Shown: piece after piece, positions 53,423-61,520 of the stretch
How positions within the stretch are numbered: the stretch's first letter is position 1
Layout: each line of letters opens with the position of its first letter
From: Rhodococcus erythropolis NBRC 15567
GTDB taxonomy: Bacteria; Actinomycetota; Actinomycetes; Mycobacteriales; Mycobacteriaceae
Reading direction: 5' to 3'
DNA: 64,000 nucleotides
NCBI RefSeq assembly: GCF_001552595.1
Contig: NZ_BCRM01000001.1
Location: forward strand, 1-64,000
The notes under the pieces: model-generated
The model's database searches: none
Seen by the model: the letters and a program-made list of their open reading frames with translations, nothing else
What the model was told of the DNA's origin: nothing
Position numbers and translations under genes: made by a program

Positions 53423-55546
53423 TCACGTCGGTTGGCTTACGCTGGTACGCCCGTTTTCGATGTGTCCGACGAGCACGCGCTTGAATTCAAGATCTTCGTC
53501 GACCGTCACGGTGGCCTGATACCAGCCGTCCGCCGACGCCACCGCCCACCGGCCGCGTGCGCCGGCAGCGAGCTTCCGTCGGTCCCCGTCGACGTCGACG
53601 GAGAGTGCACGACTTCCGGAATTGTTCGCGGTCAGTACAAGCGCGCGCGACCCTGCGTCGATGGTTGTCGAGACGTCGAGCGAGGCTGCCGCACTGTCTG
53701 TAGCTCCACTGAACTCGCGCCTGAAACCATTGGGACCCAACAGGGTCAGGCTGTAGACGCGATCACTGAGCGCAACGGTGTCATCGACCTCGCCCAGGAG
53801 GTCGTAATGCCGTGGCTCGTCGAACTCACCTGCGTACGGGTACAAGTCCAGGTGAGTTGATGCGGCACCGGCATTGACCAGATGGACCGTCAACGAGCCG
53901 GTTTCCGGGTTCACCGTCGTGTAGGCGTCGGGCTGATAGGGAAGGGCCCGTGCTGGTCGAGTGCCGCTTTCCTGCAGGGGCATTCTCTGTTCGGTGGGTG
54001 GGGTCGGTGTCCACCGCGGTTCCAGAGGCGGAGTGGGCTGCGGGCGCGCCAAAGTCGGTCGGCTACGCGGGTTGGCGAAGTCGAACGCCGACGTCAGGTC
54101 GCCACTCACCGTGCGTCGCCACGGGTCGATTTCCGGCTGCGTGATTCCGAACCGCTTCTCCAGGAATTGCGTGACGGACGTGTGGTCGAACACTTGTGAA
54201 CAAACGAAACCGCCAACAGTCCACGGCGAGATGATCGTCATCGGCACCCTCGGGCCGAGGCCGAGCGGCTGATTGCCGACCCATTCGGTTTCGACCGAGC
54301 GCGGCGGTCGAGGTGGCGGTACATGGTCGAAGTACCCGTCGTTCTCGTCGAAGTTGACGATCACGGCCGTCTTCGCCCACAGATCGGGATCGGAGGCGAC
54401 GGCGTCGAGCACTTGATAGAGCAGTGTTGCGCTCGCCGCAGGTGACGATCCCGATGGGTGCTCCGAATCCACTTCGGACGGAACGAGATAACTGACTTGC
54501 GGCAGTCGGCCCGACTCGACGTCCTTCCTGAACTCGGCGGCCAGTGTGCCGGGCCGGGATCGGTACAGTGCGCGATCGTAGAGTTGGCGATCAGCAGGCG
54601 ACAGTTGGTCTGCAGCATTCTCGAGGGCCAGTACCGCTGCGTCCTGGACCGGCGCCGGCATCGACGGCAGGGCGAGATAGAACCCGGCCAAGGTCTGCAG
54701 TTCGTAGGGGAGCAGGCTTGGCCGACCAAGCAGCCCTGCCGCCACTTTCTTGAAGGCAGTGAAGTATTCGAGGTTGTTGTCTCCGAAGTTGTCCCACTCT
54801 TGGTAGGTCTTCCAGGAAATGCCGGCGGACTGCAACCGCTCGGGAACCGTCGTCCATCCGTAGCCGGCGTGCCAGGGGTTGTAGGCAGCATTGGTTACAG
54901 CTCTTCCCTCGGGGCCGGGCGGATCCGAAGGCAGGACCGATTGGGTCGGATTAGGCGAAAGTGGCTCGTATCCGGTGTATCCAGAGACCCAATAATTCCG
55001 GTTGGGGCTCGTCGACGTCGGAACGGAGCAGTGGTAGGCGTCGCAGATCGTGAACGAGTCCGCCAGTTCGTAATGAAAGGGAATGTCTTGCCGGTCGTAG
55101 TACGCCATCGTCGTACCGGTCTTTGCCGCAATCCAACCGTCGTGCCAGCCGTCGGCGAGTGCGGCATGTCCGCCCGCCCAGCTGTGATCCAGCCCGGTGA
55201 CGTTCTGGGTGTCCATGCGTTGTGCTGCAGCGGAATCGCGGATGGGGAAGGGGAGCACAGGACCGGTAGGTCCGGGTTGTTCGAAGACGCTTTGGCCGCT
55301 GCGTAGACGCAACGCATTCGGATCCCCGAAGCCGCGAACACCCCTCAGAGCGCCGTAGTAGTGGTCGAAAGATCTGTTCTCCTGCATGACGAGGACAACA
55401 TGCTCGATCGAATCGAGCCCGCCGGAGTTTGCGGGTGTCGCCAGTGCACGTTGAAGCGACGGCGGCAGAAGGGAAGCGGCGGCGACTGCAGTCGCGCCGA
55501 CCCCGGCGGCGAGAAACGACCGTCGAGAAAAGGAATTCCTGGACAC
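53423..55546 (-). CDS. Phospholipase C, phosphoesterase family (PLC/acid phosphatase type), Tat-exported
   Basis: 707 residues. Tat signal FSRRSFLAAGVGATAVAAASLLPP, then the catalytic domain with VMQENRSFDHYYG and later INFDENDGYFDHVPPP of the bacterial non-haemolytic/haemolytic PLC family. Two C-terminal beta domains (about 520-700) follow, as in Pseudomonas and mycobacterial PLCs. GTG at 55546 is preferred, with GGAG seven bases upstream. It cleaves phosphatidylcholine or sphingomyelin type substrates. It lies 80 bp from the endoglycoceramidase, so host-type membrane lipids are a shared theme. Confidence 0.88.
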   Translation of the reverse strand: MSRNSFSRRSFLAAGVGATAVAAASLLPPSLQRALATPANSGGLDSIEHVVLVMQENRSFDHYYGALRGVRGFGDPNALRLRSGQSVFEQPGPTGPVLPFPIRDSAAAQRMDTQNVTGLDHSWAGGHAALADGWHDGWIAAKTGTTMAYYDRQDIPFHYELADSFTICDAYHCSVPTSTSPNRNYWVSGYTGYEPLSPNPTQSVLPSDPPGPEGRAVTNAAYNPWHAGYGWTTVPERLQSAGISWKTYQEWDNFGDNNLEYFTAFKKVAAGLLGRPSLLPYELQTLAGFYLALPSMPAPVQDAAVLALENAADQLSPADRQLYDRALYRSRPGTLAAEFRKDVESGRLPQVSYLVPSEVDSEHPSGSSPAASATLLYQVLDAVASDPDLWAKTAVIVNFDENDGYFDHVPPPRPPRSVETEWVGNQPLGLGPRVPMTIISPWTVGGFVCSQVFDHTSVTQFLEKRFGITQPEIDPWRRTVSGDLTSAFDFANPRSRPTLARPQPTPPLEPRWTPTPPTEQRMPLQESGTRPARALPYQPDAYTTVNPETGSLTVHLVNAGAASTHLDLYPYAGEFDEPRHYDLLGEVDDTVALSDRVYSLTLLGPNGFRREFSGATDSAAASLDVSTTIDAGSRALVLTANNSGSRALSVDVDGDRRKLAAGARGRWAVASADGWYQATVTVDEDLEFKRVLVGHIENGRTSVSQPT

Positions 55547-55596
55547 TTGTGCTCCATCGATCAATCAATCAGTGCTATGACTACGGCCGCGACATG

Positions 55597-55650: not shown

Positions 55651-57396
55651 TCAGGAACCGAAGAGACCGCCCAGCGAACCGAGGCTGCCCGAGCCGCCGT
55701 TTCCGCCATCATCAGGCGCAGCAGAAACCTTTACGATGGATTCGTCCGACGCAGACTGCGTGAATCCGCTTCGCCCGGCGTATGCCGCCTTGATCGGATG
55801 GTCGCCCGTCGATGCGAAAGTGTGCGTCAGTCGCGCCACACCGTCGACTCCGACGACAACGGGTTGTCCGATGGGTTGGTCACCGTCGAAGAACTGAACC
55901 GAACCCCCGCCCGGATTAGGACTGACCGTTGCGGAAAGTTCTGCCGCGACATTCTGCTTGGCCGTCGCGGGAGCTGCCAGTGAGGTCGAGGTGGTGACAT
56001 CGGACGGCGCGGGATCAGACACGGTGACCGTTTGGGCCGATGCCATCGACGGCATGAATCCTGTTGCGCCGGAGTAGTAGGCCGACACTGCATGAGATCC
56101 GGCCGAGGTGAATGCGTGTTCCAGAGTGGCTTTTCCGTCAGCGCCCACCGGGATCGGGGCACCGATGTTTGCAGCGCCATCCTTGAACTGGAGAGTGCCA
56201 CCAGTGGGGGTCGGCGTGACCTGCGCCCTCAGCGACACCGATACGCCCGTCTTTGCATCGGTAGGAACGTTCACGGCAGTGTCGGTCTGCTTGACGACAG
56301 GTGCGGCAGTCACCGTGACCATCGTCTCTGTCGAGTTGGAACTCTGGAATCCGTTGACTCCCTGGAACGTTGCGGAGACCCGCGCGGTTCCGGCGGTGAA
56401 GAAGGTATGCGGTAGCCGGGCAGTGCCGTCGGCACCGGGCGTGACAGGTGTACCGACGTCAGCGCCGTCCACCCTGAACTGCACGTTTCCGTTGACCGGA
56501 GCCGGATCCACCTTTGCGACAAGCTCTGTCGGTGTGCTGGCTTGGATCGAGTCGGGCATCTGGATTGTGGTGGTTGTCGGTTGGCTGACGTAGATGGTGG
56601 TCAGGGCCTGCCCACCGGCGTTGAGGCCGGAGTTCCTGTTGTCCCGCGGGGAGCAGTTGTAGCGCTCCCAGTAGTTGACTGTGAAGACATCCTTCTCGCG
56701 CTGGACGAATGTGAGCGCATTTCGGTCGTCGTCGTAGTTGGCGGAGCCGGGATCGGAAACTCGCAGCGAAGGCTTGATCTCGCTACCAGCCGCACCGGCT
56801 TTGACTGTGACGTCGACTGCGGGGAGTCGGAACTTGGTGTTGGCACCGACGATGATGCCGTCACTCGATCGAACCGCGGAGGACGGACCGTTTCCGATGG
56901 TCCGATTCGATCCGGAGATACGCAGGTGCGTACCGGATGCCGATGGATTACCGCCGTCGTCGATCTGTGTGACTGTTGGAGTGGCACTGTCGGATCCGAG
57001 GCCGTACGCACTGTCCGCCACAAGCTGCGAACTCACGAATTCGACGCCCGACGGGATGTCGAAGTCGTACTTGATCCGGGCCCAATGCACGACTCCACGG
57101 CTGGCATGGCCGCCGCCGTTTGCCTTCATCTCGTTCGGCTGCACGCGGTAGGTGACGGTCTCACCTGGTGCCGCGGTGGTCGGCGCGGTGATGGTGACCC
57201 CCGAGCCGAGCGTCTCGTTGAACGTGATCGGGCTTGCCGCACCGTCCATCTCGCGCACATGGCATGCAGTTGTGAAGGCCACGCTCTTGGTCTCGGGGGC
57301 AGCAGAGGCGGTCCCGCCGCCGGCGATCGCGAACAACCCGCCGGCCAGTACCGAGACGGTTGCAATCGCAGAGCCGCGTAACAGTTTCGAGTTCAT
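55651..57396 (-). CDS. Secreted Ig-like repeat protein, large paralogue
   Basis: 581 residues. Signal peptide ends TASAAPETK. The N-terminal 270 residues form a domain shared with the next gene: CHVREMDGAASPITFNETLGSGVTITAP, NYWERYNCSPRDNRNSGLNAGGQ. Three Ig-like (BIG3-type) repeats follow, each about 90 residues with GGTLQFKDGAANIG-type strands. The tail GGSGSLGSLGGLFGS has no membrane anchor or sortase motif. Probably an exported surface or adhesion/binding protein; no enzymatic motif. Confidence 0.8.
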   Translation of the reverse strand: MNSKLLRGSAIATVSVLAGGLFAIAGGGTASAAPETKSVAFTTACHVREMDGAASPITFNETLGSGVTITAPTTAAPGETVTYRVQPNEMKANGGGHASRGVVHWARIKYDFDIPSGVEFVSSQLVADSAYGLGSDSATPTVTQIDDGGNPSASGTHLRISGSNRTIGNGPSSAVRSSDGIIVGANTKFRLPAVDVTVKAGAAGSEIKPSLRVSDPGSANYDDDRNALTFVQREKDVFTVNYWERYNCSPRDNRNSGLNAGGQALTTIYVSQPTTTTIQMPDSIQASTPTELVAKVDPAPVNGNVQFRVDGADVGTPVTPGADGTARLPHTFFTAGTARVSATFQGVNGFQSSNSTETMVTVTAAPVVKQTDTAVNVPTDAKTGVSVSLRAQVTPTPTGGTLQFKDGAANIGAPIPVGADGKATLEHAFTSAGSHAVSAYYSGATGFMPSMASAQTVTVSDPAPSDVTTSTSLAAPATAKQNVAAELSATVSPNPGGGSVQFFDGDQPIGQPVVVGVDGVARLTHTFASTGDHPIKAAYAGRSGFTQSASDESIVKVSAAPDDGGNGGSGSLGSLGGLFGS

Positions 57397-57425
57397 CGAC
57401 GAATCCTGGTTTCTGTTCACAGTTT

Positions 57426-58568
57426 TCACGACCCGAATCCCGGGGTACCAAGGCTGCCGAGGCTACCGGTGCCCGGCTCGGGCTCGGACGGTTCGACGAC
57501 GTTGATCGTCACGGCGCCCGACATCGACTCCATGAAGCCTGCAGATCCCGTGTAGTACGCCGTGATGTTGTGGTCGCCCACTGTTGTCATCGTGCGGTTG
57601 GCCTTCGCGACGCCGTTGACGACGGCCACCGGAGCGCCGAGGTCGACCCCTCCGTCACGGAACTGCACTGTTCCTCCCGACGGCCACGGAGTGACCGTCG
57701 CCGTCAGTTCCACGGAGTCACCGACGACAGCTTTACCGGGTGCGTCGATTCGCGTCTGTGTCTGAGCGAGGCTGGAGTCGACATTGATCACGGCGAGCGG
57801 CTGGCCGCCTGCGTTCAATCCGGCCGAACGATTGTCGCGTGGTGAGCAATTGGTGGTCAGCCAGTATTTGACGCCGCCGAGCAGGGTTTCCTGTTGCAGG
57901 AAGGTCAGGTAGTTGGCGGCACTGTCGTAGGAACCGGAGTTGGTGTCGGAAACGCGGAGCATGGGCTTGATCTGGGTTCCCACAGCCCCTGACGTGACGG
58001 TGACGTCGACTGCCGGGAGCTGGAACGTCTTTCCTCCACCGACCTCGATTCCGCCGCCGCCGTTGTCGTCGGTGTTGGGTCCGTTGCCTGCCGTGATGTT
58101 GTTGCCGGAGATACGAAGATGCGTCCCATTCGGATCGGGTGAACCGGCATCGTTCACCCGCGTGATCGTCGGGGCGACCCCACCCAGATTCGAGCTGGTG
58201 CCGGCCACGATCTGCGCCCCCACGTAAGAGGTGCCTGCAGGGATGTCGAAATCGAACTTGAGACGTGTCCAGTTCACGACGGACCTGAGGTCGTAGCCGT
58301 CATTGGGGACCGTCATCGGCTTGGGGGCGAGTCGGTAGGTGAAGGTCGAGTTCGGCGGAACCACGGTCGGGGCACTGATCGTGACGCCGGAATCACGCGT
58401 CTCGTTGTGTGTGATCGGACCGGGGAACTGCCACCCGTGACACGATGCCGTGAACGGAAGGTTCACATCAGCGGCGGATGAAACTCCCGCTCCGCCGACG
58501 ACCAGGGCAACGCATCCGGTCAAGGATGCGGCCACCCCTACTCCTCGGCGCATCAACGTCGACACCAT
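57426..58568 (-). CDS. Secreted Ig-like protein, small paralogue
   Basis: 380 residues. Signal peptide ends GVSSAADVN. The N-terminal domain aligns with the larger neighbour (CHGWQFPGPITHNETRDSGVTISAP; TTNCSPRDNRSAGLNAGGQPL), followed by one Ig-like repeat and the tail EPGTGSLGSLGTPGFGS. AAGGAG precedes the ATG. The two genes are a tandem duplication in which the repeat number differs (one versus three). Both lie upstream of the PLC and endoglycoceramidase genes on the same strand. Confidence 0.8.
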   Translation of the reverse strand: MVSTLMRRGVGVAASLTGCVALVVGGAGVSSAADVNLPFTASCHGWQFPGPITHNETRDSGVTISAPTVVPPNSTFTYRLAPKPMTVPNDGYDLRSVVNWTRLKFDFDIPAGTSYVGAQIVAGTSSNLGGVAPTITRVNDAGSPDPNGTHLRISGNNITAGNGPNTDDNGGGGIEVGGGKTFQLPAVDVTVTSGAVGTQIKPMLRVSDTNSGSYDSAANYLTFLQQETLLGGVKYWLTTNCSPRDNRSAGLNAGGQPLAVINVDSSLAQTQTRIDAPGKAVVGDSVELTATVTPWPSGGTVQFRDGGVDLGAPVAVVNGVAKANRTMTTVGDHNITAYYTGSAGFMESMSGAVTINVVEPSEPEPGTGSLGSLGTPGFGS

Positions 58569-58838: not shown

Positions 58839-60761
58839 TCAGGCGATCGCGCGGCGCATCAGTTCTGCCGTCTCCTTGTTGAATGCGACCAGTGTGACCG
58901 TCTCGACCTCGGTCTTCGCCGTGCGAATCGCTGAAACGGCCTGTCGGACCGCATCTTCCTTCGGCCAGCCGTAAACCCCTGCCGAGATCAACGGAAAGGC
59001 GACGGTTCGTGCGCCGATCGAGTCGGCAACGGCGAGACTGCGGGTGTACGCCGACCGAAGCAATCCGGATCGGTCCTCGGAGCGCGAATACCTCGGGCCG
59101 ACGGTGTGAATCACGGCCTTGGCGTGGAGCTTTCCCGCGGTGGTGGCCACGGCCGCACCCACCGGGAGGCCGTCGGGAAGGCTGGTGTTGCGCAATACCT
59201 CGCAGGCCTTCAGGATCTCCGGTCCTCCGGCTCGGTGGATCGCGCCGTCGACACCGCCACCGCCGAGGAGCCTGGAGTTGGCCGCATTGACGATGGCGTC
59301 GACGGTCAGCGTCGTGATGTCACCTTCGACGACTGTAATAGCGGGCATGGATCCTCCTGTGTTTCCGACGGCTGTGTTTCCGACTGCCGTGTTCCAGAGT
59401 TCACGCTTCGGGCGAGCCCACGGCATAGCCGAGCGTACGTCGTAGGGGTCACGTCCGATCAACATCGAGTATCGCGCCGCAACCGACGGTGTGCGACTGT
59501 GCGCCTGAACGCAATGAAGGAGTACGCGCTTTCCCTCGGCCCGCAACGCCTGGACGGTGCGCGCTGCGTCGTCGAGAACGAACTCGAGGTTGGCGTTGGA
59601 ATCGTGACCGTCGTCGACCAACCAGAACTCGACGTGATCGGAGCTGACCTGCCGTGTTCCCATGCGGCACAGGCTGACCACGGCGTCGTAGTCTGCAGTG
59701 GACACCGCATCGACGCCGCCGAGCATGACGCCGTCGTCGTGCGGATGTGTGGTCAGGTGGTGGGTCCCGCGGAATTTCGAGTAATCGAGTTCTGCCGTCG
59801 ACGGCCATCCGTTCTTGTCGTCGGTACCGCCGCGAGCAGTCTTGATCGCCAGGCGAACCAGATCGGAGGAACGGTATCCCGGCCAGCCGTGCATGATTCG
59901 GCGCCAGCGGGCGGGAACCGCCGACGCTCCCCAGCGGGCGCCGAGGAGGCCACCCGCGATGGCCGCAGTCGTGTCGGTGTCCCCGCCGGCTCGTACGGCT
60001 GCTTCCAATGCGTACTGGAGGTGGCGAGCGTCGGCATTGTCCGTGGAAGTGATGGCCCACCAAGCAGTCTGAAGTGCATGCACCACCCAACCGTTCTTGG
60101 AGAAGTCCTGCGGGTTCCCGGTTTCGGCCTGATGGAGCAGCGGGCCCCAGTATTCGGCGACGTCCTGATCGGCAACGGAGAGGAAGCCGCGAACACCGTC
60201 GAAGTTGCCGGCGACAACGGCATGGCGGATGGCATGGGTCCACAACTCGCACGCCTGTCCGGCACGCGGGTCGTCGTGCGTGAGTGAACTGATCCGGTGC
60301 GCTGCCGACCTGGCACCTTCTGCATCGTCCAAGTAGGAGAGGGCGACGGGAGCAGTCCGCATGAGCGAGCCGTTGCCGGCCTTGCGGCCGCTGATCGCCC
60401 GCGCACGATCCGCCATCGCCGCTGCGCTTTCGGAGCGGGCAGACAACACTGCTCGCGTCTGGTTGCCGATGTCCGCGGGCGTCGAGTCGTACCACCGGAT
60501 GAACTGTGCTGCAATGGCATCAAGACCGCCAGAGCTTACGATGTCGATTCCGGTAGCGGCCACCTCGGCGATCGCAACTGCCATCGAGGTGTCGTCGGTC
60601 CATTCTCCCGGTGCCCAGTTGAACGGGCCGCCACCGATCATGTCGATGTCGATCTCGGCCTTCGGATAGGTGAATTCGTAGCCGGCGCCGAGTGCGTCTC
60701 CTGCTGCGGTGCCGAGCAGAACGCCGGCCGCTCGATCGGACTGCTGTGCGGTGAGTTTCAT
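58839..60761 (-). CDS. ADP-ribosylglycohydrolase / Cys-phosphatase / macrodomain triple fusion
   Basis: 640 residues with three domains. Residues 5-310 are a DraG-type ADP-ribosylglycohydrolase, with metal motifs WTDDT (54-58) and AGGDTDTTAA. Residues 335-450 form a dual-specificity-phosphatase-like domain with HCVQAHSRTP (Cys417, Arg423) after a general-acid DD. A linker with an NTAVG repeat (457-470) leads to a macrodomain (472-640) with VEGDITTLTVDAIVNAANSRLLGGGGVDGAIH, which binds ADP-ribose. GAGG precedes the ATG at 60761. ADP-ribose removal from proteins or O-acetyl-ADP-ribose is the likely theme. It is divergent from an NrtR-like regulator. Confidence 0.9.
   Translation of the reverse strand: MKLTAQQSDRAAGVLLGTAAGDALGAGYEFTYPKAEIDIDMIGGGPFNWAPGEWTDDTSMAVAIAEVAATGIDIVSSGGLDAIAAQFIRWYDSTPADIGNQTRAVLSARSESAAAMADRARAISGRKAGNGSLMRTAPVALSYLDDAEGARSAAHRISSLTHDDPRAGQACELWTHAIRHAVVAGNFDGVRGFLSVADQDVAEYWGPLLHQAETGNPQDFSKNGWVVHALQTAWWAITSTDNADARHLQYALEAAVRAGGDTDTTAAIAGGLLGARWGASAVPARWRRIMHGWPGYRSSDLVRLAIKTARGGTDDKNGWPSTAELDYSKFRGTHHLTTHPHDDGVMLGGVDAVSTADYDAVVSLCRMGTRQVSSDHVEFWLVDDGHDSNANLEFVLDDAARTVQALRAEGKRVLLHCVQAHSRTPSVAARYSMLIGRDPYDVRSAMPWARPKRELWNTAVGNTAVGNTGGSMPAITVVEGDITTLTVDAIVNAANSRLLGGGGVDGAIHRAGGPEILKACEVLRNTSLPDGLPVGAAVATTAGKLHAKAVIHTVGPRYSRSEDRSGLLRSAYTRSLAVADSIGARTVAFPLISAGVYGWPKEDAVRQAVSAIRTAKTEVETVTLVAFNKETAELMRRAIA
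59346..59358 (-). promoter_or_regulatory. Internal Shine-Dalgarno and ATG before the macrodomain
   Basis: On the coding strand AGGAGG (complement of 59353-59358), four bases, then ATG at 59348. Translation from here gives a 169-residue macrodomain ending at 58839, the usual size for stand-alone macrodomains. The site lies at the exact domain border. Confidence 0.6.
59352..59393. repeat. 15-bp coding repeat in the fusion linker
   Basis: On the coding strand the units are AACACGGCAGTCGGA, AACACAGCCGTCGGA and a partial AACACAGGAGGA, encoding NTAVG, NTAVG, NTGG. The third unit creates the internal Shine-Dalgarno sequence. Confidence 0.85.
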
Positions 60762-60839
60762 AGCCACCTCTTCGGTTCGCGATGATCGTTTGATCAACTT
60801 TGCGCTAACCATAGATCATATTTGAGATAACATGCAAGG

Positions 60840-61520
60840 GTGAATAAATGGACAGACACGAGCGGCAAGCGATTGACGGACTATCCGCGTCCGTCTGTGG
60901 CAGTGGACGTCGCGGTGCTGACGTACAGCGGTGGATCTCTGAAAGTTCTGGTGGTTCGGCACCGTCTCGGTGCGCTGGCGCTACCGGGAACATTTCTGCA
61001 CGAACGCGAATTGCTCACGGCCGCAGCCGATCGTGCCCTGTCGGTCAAGGCAGAGTTGGCCCAGACGAGCTTTCACCAGTTGGCGATCTTCGACCGACCG
61101 GACCGCGACGACCGTGGATGGGTTTTGTCGGTCGCACACACGGCTTGCCTACCGGAATCGGCACTGCCCGATTCGGCGCTTCTCGTCGATGTGTACGACG
61201 ACGAGGCAGTGAGCGGACTCGCATTCGATCACGCCGACATGGTGCGACTCGCGGTCACGGACCTACGCACGAGGTATGCGTCGTACGTGGATCCGGACGG
61301 ATTGTCGGGCGGGACGTTCACCGTCGCCGAACTTCGGGGACTGTACGAGGTGATCTTCGATCGTCCGTTCCAGAAGGACAGCTTCCGCCGGCAGGTGTTC
61401 GACGCGCTCGAAAGTACCGGCGAGATGAGCAGGCCAGGTAACGGCCGACCCGCCGAGACGTACCGGAGGCGGGGTGACGGTGCACTGACTGCGCAGGCAA
61501 TGGCATTTTTGACCGGATGA
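60840..61520 (+). CDS. NrtR-like regulator (Nudix domain plus winged helix)
   Basis: 226 residues. The Nudix domain (1-140) keeps the fold (ALPGTFLHERELLTAAADRALSVKAEL at the Nudix-box position) but lacks the catalytic REUXEE glutamates, so it should bind rather than hydrolyse. The C-terminal winged helix has FTVAELRGLYEVIFDRPFQKDSFRRQVFDALESTGEM. NrtR proteins repress NAD genes and release DNA on binding ADP-ribose or NAD intermediates. GTG at 60840 is not well supported by a ribosome site. It is divergent from the ADP-ribose hydrolase fusion, its likely target. Confidence 0.85.
   Translation: MNKWTDTSGKRLTDYPRPSVAVDVAVLTYSGGSLKVLVVRHRLGALALPGTFLHERELLTAAADRALSVKAELAQTSFHQLAIFDRPDRDDRGWVLSVAHTACLPESALPDSALLVDVYDDEAVSGLAFDHADMVRLAVTDLRTRYASYVDPDGLSGGTFTVAELRGLYEVIFDRPFQKDSFRRQVFDALESTGEMSRPGNGRPAETYRRRGDGALTAQAMAFLTG

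Follow-up and report, generated by a model that had tools for sequence, protein, structure and literature searches.

A rare ADP-ribosylglycohydrolase-phosphatase-macrodomain fusion and its dedicated NrtR-type regulator in Rhodococcus erythropolis: probably a compact ADP-ribose-removal system

Introduction

ADP-ribosylglycohydrolases (ARG) act on N- and O-glycosides of ADP-ribose, and macrodomains (Macro) act on its esters. ARG-centred host systems have been predicted in PMC9503650, whose section 3.8 gives Nudix or WYL regulators in more than 42% of them, a phosphatase in slightly more than 55% and, as variable parts, Macro or NADAR, chaperones, endonucleases and ARPP. The same section proposes self-induction by the system's own product, and the countering of phage-made ADP-ribosylation is a prediction in that paper too. 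In this study, we analyzed a 64,000-nucleotide stretch (the window) of contig NZ_BCRM01000001.1 from Rhodococcus erythropolis NBRC 15567 (host genome 6.59 Mb), in which one gene encodes an ARG, a phosphatase and a macrodomain in a single chain and faces a divergent NrtR-type regulator gene. The locus is probably a compact one-gene form of an ARG-centred ADP-ribose-removal system under a dedicated NrtR-type repressor.

Three enzyme domains in one chain

The features of the locus are as follows.

58839..60761, minus strand: ARG-phosphatase-Macro fusion gene, 640 aa, ATG at 60761; AlphaFold2 mean predicted local distance difference test score (pLDDT) 90.5, predicted template modelling score (pTM) 0.72
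59907..60725, minus strand: ADP-ribosylglycohydrolase (DraG-type) domain, residues 13-285, with TDD, TH and GGDTDT motifs
59382..59810, minus strand: dual-specificity-type phosphatase domain, residues ~318-460, with P-loop H416-C417-x5-R423 and candidate general acid D383
59349..59378, minus strand: variable linker with an NTAVG-type repeat, residues ~462-471
58842..59345, minus strand: MacroD-type macrodomain, residues 473-640, Pfam PF01661 at E 2.6e-38
60789..60808, no strand: candidate operator box A, on the fusion-gene side, 20 bp, 1 mismatch to TTAGMKCANNNNTGMKCTAA
60811..60830, no strand: candidate operator box B, on the regulator-gene side, 20 bp, 2 mismatches to TTAGMKCANNNNTGMKCTAA
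60840..61520, plus strand: NrtR-type regulator with a degenerate Nudix sensor and a winged-helix DNA-binding domain, 226 aa, GTG start

An earlier sequence-only reading had claimed a triple fusion with intact sites, and profile matches, motifs and residues confirmed it. The 640-residue chain holds, in order, the ARG, the dual-specificity-type phosphatase with Cys417 and Arg423, and the MacroD-type macrodomain. The ARG domain matched Pfam PF03747 (E 2.7e-57; 195 bits, cut-off 26.2), and its binuclear metal motifs TDD, TH and GGDTDT were identical in 8/8 aligned triple-fusion rows. The macrodomain reached 239.7 bits against NCBIfam NF001664 (O-acetyl-ADP-ribose deacetylase), above the cut-off of 200. 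The DUSP fold and the HC-x5-R loop place the phosphatase in its class, while its scores of 26.7 bits for the whole chain and 30.1 bits for the domain alone lie below the Pfam DSPc gathering score of 33.5; the Antrihabitans fusion, at 33.8 bits, lies above it. The structure prediction that had been suggested as a check was run with AlphaFold2, and linker residues 462-470 fell below pLDDT 50. The length of this linker also varies between strains and relatives. The ratio of nonsynonymous to synonymous substitution rates (dN/dS) between the window and L006 was 0.10-0.11 in each of the three domains, and 0.05-0.24 across five pairs. All three domains are under purifying selection. The nearest named relatives of the fusion protein, at 95-96%, were from Rhodococcus sp. 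P-2, R. qingshengii IEGM 1359 and Rhodococcus sp. IEGM 1409. As a separate observation, the phosphatase loop of Cryobacterium algoritolerans (L050) carries Gly where the catalytic Arg would be, the sole such case among 13 rows.

We compared this chain with the closest described proteins and systems. Actinobacterial ARG-phosphatase two-domain proteins have the same order over residues 1 to ~460 at 40-63% identity, but they lack the fused macrodomain. O-acetyl-ADP-ribose deacetylases of the YmdB/MacroD type likewise have a full macrodomain with glycine-rich loops; they stand alone elsewhere, whereas here the macrodomain is the C-terminal module of a fusion. The systems of PMC9503650 share with this locus an ARG core without a linked transferase (five neighbours scanned here), a Nudix regulator with a helix-turn-helix domain (here by NrtR_WHD and 3gz5 matches), an optional Macro and the proposed self-induction. 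Their rhodanese/DSP-superfamily phosphatase is coupled to the ARG, whereas it is fused here, with three enzymes in one chain. The accessory chaperone, endonuclease or ARPP, which not all published loci have, was found in relatives (L042, L075 and L037) and not among the five neighbours scanned here.

The sequence-only reading had proposed a closed ADP-ribose clearance circuit. The idea is not new: since a self-inducing circuit of this type is already predicted in section 3.8 of PMC9503650, the locus is a variant of a predicted kind. The exact fusion is not named in the text of that section, whose Figure 7, outside the material examined, could depict it. The terms 'Rhodococcus', 'palindrom' and 'operator' do not occur in the paper's text, Figure 7 and supplements aside, and a literature search returned no other title or abstract opening about the ARG-phosphatase-Macro-regulator combination. 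What the locus adds to the printed prediction is the triple fusion and its rarity, the apparent loss of the phosphatase, the candidate operator, and a regulator distinct from the nad NrtR.

A second, dedicated NrtR-type regulator

NrtR regulators of NAD (nicotinamide adenine dinucleotide) metabolism, MsNrtR and SoNrtR, combine a Nudix domain minus its catalytic glutamates with a winged helix, and a palindrome lies in their divergent promoter. The regulator studied here, whose gene is divergent from the fusion gene, shares these properties. It matched PF21906 (NrtR_WHD) at E 1.8e-12 and, over both domains, PDB 3gz5 at E 3.2e-17, an entry titled MutT/nudix family protein. We take 3gz5 to be the Shewanella NrtR, which fits the residue numbers Arg98 and Arg41. 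Its residues were numbered with a three-residue offset, and this offset fits both arginines cited in the text of PMC4666351. In an alignment of 15 rows, the Nudix signature was degenerate. The window has RALSVK in place of the expected REUXEE; the Glu that should follow Arg is replaced by Ala or Ser in 15/15 rows, only L037 retains the first Glu of the pair, and the second is Lys70 in every row. These matches and the alignment bear out the degenerate-Nudix NrtR type that had been read from the letters.

We found that the same genome has a second NrtR_WHD gene (L099 4619-5347), which is divergent from nadA-nadB-nadC, as named by reading translations. It is preceded by GTTTTCGATCCTAAGTCGAAAAC, which is the MsNrtR palindrome GTTTTCGA-N7-TCGAAAAC given in PMC6800001. 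Because the nad-linked place and the nad-type palindrome are taken by this other gene, the fusion-linked regulator is not the NAD-operon NrtR but a dedicated second NrtR-type paralogue. Against the NAD-type equivalog NF050029, the fusion-linked regulator reached 75.2 bits, below the cut-off of 400. NAD-type NrtR faces nad genes and has boxes of the form GTTTTCGA-N7-TCGAAAAC, whereas the regulator here faces ADP-ribose erasers, has tandem 20-bp boxes, and does not conserve the Arg41 position.

The position equivalent to SoNrtR Arg98 is R92, invariant in 15/15 rows, and position 15, matched to SoNrtR Phe15 by gapless extension of the 3gz5 alignment, is Tyr in 14/15 and Phe in 1/15. Together with targets that are ADP-ribose enzymes, these residues are points against a ligand other than ADP-ribose. 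Such a ligand, for instance a phosphorylated or acetylated form of it or a sugar of another kind, is nevertheless possible, if somewhat doubtful. It would fit the phosphate-contacting Arg41 position, which is H41 here and varies across the 15 rows, and the altered GG of the 3gz5 LPGGF, which reads LPGTF in 14/15 rows and LPGKF in 1/15. There are also precedents in the NrtR family, in which AraR responds to arabinose and NdnR of Corynebacterium to NAD, according to the text of PMC4666351.

Paired candidate operator boxes

Boxes A and B are two tandem 20-bp palindromes with the consensus TTAGMKCANNNNTGMKCTAA between the fusion and regulator genes. They were spotted by eye and through a pair in Williamsia (L048), which consists of two perfect palindromes 23 bp apart (best pair), and a fixed consensus was then put to the test. 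Searching the intergenic DNA blindly for palindromes gave nothing remarkable in most loci, as for 14/22 distinct sequences at least 31% of shuffles scored equally well. With the fixed consensus, the window held two matches at <=2 mismatches against 0.04 expected from shuffles. The boxes recur every 22-23 bp in the Nocardiaceae loci, and a related pair with 43-bp spacing, TTTACGC...GCG(T/C)(A/G)AA, is seen in 5/7 Microbacteriaceae loci where the regulator is adjacent; the other two, Cryobacterium L041 and L049, lack it. The sole promoter-like match in 60700-60900, a consensus match only, faces the fusion gene and overlaps box B.

The consensus was then searched genome-wide at <=2 mismatches in 9 genomes, as pairs at <=3 mismatches in the 28 genomes of our genus sample, and as single boxes at <=1 mismatch in 16 genomes. 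At <=2 mismatches, the ARG-regulator promoter had the only paired sites in 9/9 genomes. The paired pattern occurred in 14/28 genomes, at one place each, and lay directly upstream of the ARG gene in 14/14. Counting G014 and G018, whose pairs are spaced 23 bp apart, 16 of the 17 ARG genomes have the pair. The exception, G020, has an ARG and only one NrtR_WHD gene. Since the motif was derived from linked loci, the held-out test consists of four unlinked genomes and the regulator promoters. In G005, G008, G010 and G026, which were not used for deriving the motif, the pair precedes the ARG although the regulator lies more than 1.5 kb away, and a VOC-like open reading frame (by eye) takes the regulator's place upstream of the ARG. 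In 6/6 genomes (these four, G004 and G007), the second NrtR-type gene has one box in front of it, ~480-500 bp from its winged-helix part. The regulator orthologues away from the ARG were 61-65% identical to the window regulator in the three read (L100, L102 and L103), and those of G004, G005 and G008 were assigned from family match and box. The boxes thus stand in both promoters of the four unlinked genomes, which makes chance or plain promoter conservation unlikely. Among 10 genomes with one NrtR_WHD gene, the single box at <=1 mismatch was found in 0/10 and the pair at <=3 in 0/10. Stray matches, at 1-2 single sites per genome in the 9-genome search and one each in G007 and G026, were read as chance. 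The paired control pattern gave one match in 28 genomes. These results suggest that the regulator controls the locus, as the sequence-only reading had proposed, since the distribution of the paired boxes follows the regulator. G004 and G007 (L103) have no ARG match, yet both keep the dedicated regulator together with its box (in G004 by family match and box).

Distribution and evolution of the fusion

Layouts in the genus sample were judged within 1.5 kb of the ARG. The triple fusion was present in 8/28 genomes, so that the genes are not separate in all relatives, the outcome that would have spoken against the fusion. An ARG-Macro fusion was found in 2/28 (G002 and G017), an ARG beside a Macro gene in 1/28 (G018), an ARG-phosphatase followed by Macro genes in 1/28 (G014) and an ARG alone in 5/28 (G005, G008, G010, G020 and G026); 11/28 had no ARG match. 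Among 44 named loci, Antrihabitans stalactiti (L036) has the triple fusion as well; R. globerulus (L038) and R. triatomae (L039) have ARG-Macro. Across 296 genomes sampled evenly from the class, only the own genome had a 1-640 match among the matches listed, and at least 20 others had an ARG-phosphatase, with an unbroken match running from the start of the ARG to residue 431 or further. Of 213 plasmid records and 35 phage records that match the fusion, none spans 80% of the query; among the 20 matches listed for each, Streptomyces plasmids carry ARG-phosphatase and 11 Streptomyces phages match over the ARG only. The triple fusion is rare. Two Rhodococcus plasmids (NZ_CP133327.1 and NZ_CP017300.1) match the ARG only, at 74.5% over residues 1-314, where no gene is annotated.

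The two ARG-Macro genomes are nested in the triple clade of the ARG tree, with support of 100/99 (nine rows) and 98/90 (inner group). The tree omits L002, L031-L035 and L038 (near-identical or same genomes) and L074 (a fragment); L026 and L027 duplicate other loci. Because the ARG-Macro genomes lie inside this clade, the phosphatase was most simply, and apparently, lost there, within the Rhodococcus clade. In the macrodomain tree, the Antrihabitans macrodomain joins separate-gene macrodomains (90/88, unstarred). A constraint keeping the Rhodococcus and Antrihabitans fusions together was not rejected (p-AU 0.315), and the two may or may not share one origin. The macrodomain tree omits the ARG-tree exclusions, L009 and L076-L078, and also matches shorter than ~140 residues, and here and in the constraint test stops in tblastn match strings were turned into X.

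A free macrodomain match was found elsewhere in all five ARG-alone genomes, and no second one (E <=0.001) in the eight triple, two ARG-Macro and one ARG-next-to-Macro genomes; G014 has both. A fused or adjacent macrodomain may substitute for a free copy.

ADP-ribosylation partners

We next consider the enzymes that could supply a substrate. KptA, DarT and Arr transferases, the only families covered by this search, were not found in the own genome. In the 28 genomes, DarT was found in none, KptA in 1 (G025) and Arr in 3 (G003, G008 and G027), none of these with a triple fusion; the KptA search was positive in 3/14 control genomes. The five window neighbour genes scanned include no transferase or sirtuin. 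ARG and macrodomains act as antitoxins in known pairs, according to the text of PMC9503650, and the fusion could be immunity to a specific ADP-ribosyltransferase of the same cell, as in a DraT/DraG- or DarT/DarG-like pair, but with none of the searched families in a triple bearer and no transferase among the neighbours this is very unlikely. The phosphatase might also act on ADP-ribose-1''-phosphate from KptA RNA repair, since that is a known phosphorylated ADP-ribose species (PMC9503650, text), but the absence of KptA in the 8 triple bearers makes this chance slighter still.

SIR2 occurs in 27/28 genomes. One could therefore read the chain as housekeeping salvage, clearing O-acetyl-ADP-ribose and free ADP-ribose derivatives from the cell's sirtuin and NAD turnover without a conflict role. 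This is consistent with the macrodomain's best score, an O-acetyl-ADP-ribose deacetylase, and with the absence from the own genome of further matches to the chain or its macrodomain (E <=0.001, at which diverged macrodomains could escape). However, SIR2 is near-universal while ARG is patchy (17/28), and relatives pair the ARG with conflict-type genes, which fits a conflict role better, so we consider salvage unlikely. The Salinibacterium L042 locus has ARPP-1 (E 6.5e-49) and a weak HD match below cut-off, L075 (G014) has a TY-Chap C-domain fused to Macro, and Aldersonia L037 has a NERD-helicase gene. As ARPP-1, TY-Chap and NERD are types named in section 3.8 of PMC9503650, they support an ARG-centred system.

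In G014, two tandem Macro genes lie behind the ARG-phosphatase (L075 4051-4992 and 5260-6258). The first, with the TY-Chap C-domain, has altered glycine-loop residues (GGDGVAG), so its macrodomain may bind rather than cleave.

Proposed circuit

The domains, their intact sites, purifying selection, and the boxes with their co-distribution with the regulator are established, and the locus most likely encodes a single-chain ADP-ribose eraser that is both repressed and inducible. The second NrtR-type regulator would repress its own gene and the fusion gene by binding the two tandem palindromes of the promoter they share. As macromolecules are ADP-ribosylated by a phage, a rival or another transferase, ADP-ribose or a close derivative would rise, bind the dead Nudix domain and release the repressor from DNA. 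The ARG would then strip ADP-ribose from N/O-glycosides such as ADP-ribosyl-Arg or -Ser, Macro would strip esters such as ADP-ribosyl-Asp/Glu as well as O-acetyl-ADP-ribose, and the phosphatase would take phosphate off the substrate or product. With its inducer consumed, the system would shut off. It may serve an antiphage role or another purpose.

Several points weigh against this circuit. The variable Arg41 position and the AraR and NdnR precedents concern its ligand, and MsNrtR was released by 50 mM ADP-ribose, a very high dose (PMC6800001). The boxes track the second NrtR-type gene (18/18 genomes with it, 0/10 without), although thresholds differ and kinship is uncorrected. A reversed control pattern at <=2 mismatches outnumbered the real one (5-16 against 3-4 sites per genome) and at <=1 mismatch gave 1-3 matches in 11/16 genomes; a lone weak box is thus uninformative, and pairing and place count. 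The phosphatase is dispensable and can be lost. No triple bearer has KptA, the five neighbours scanned include no chaperone, endonuclease or ARPP, and PADLOC gave no model match.

A variant of this proposal, a self-limiting emergency circuit, holds that the second NrtR, its pocket altered, senses a derivative of ADP-ribose unique to ADP-ribosylation attack and not free ADP-ribose, and that the three-headed enzyme destroys both modification and signal. We consider it distinctly unlikely. If it were true, 'NAD state' and 'attack' would be read through separate channels, each with an NrtR paralogue and operator of its own, free ADP-ribose being read by the nad-operon NrtR.

With the preferred circuit, in which ADP-ribose or a close derivative is the inducer, the published prediction becomes directly testable in a soil bacterium with a single enzyme, its regulator and a mapped pair of 20-bp boxes. 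The sequence-only reading is partly supported, and nature offers four genomes with the regulator unlinked from its target and boxes at both promoters, two genomes with the phosphatase deleted, and a cell in which two NrtR paralogues can be compared.

Neighbouring genes

The adjoining, slightly overlapping genes at 55651-57429 and 57426-58568 on the minus strand encode secreted-looking proteins with bacterial Ig-like (Big_3_5) repeats; they are 44% identical to one another, a tandem duplication in which repeat number differs. On the same strand, 53423-55564 encodes a phosphoesterase of the phospholipase C type, which contains a PLipase_C_C domain and whose start is twin-arginine-like.

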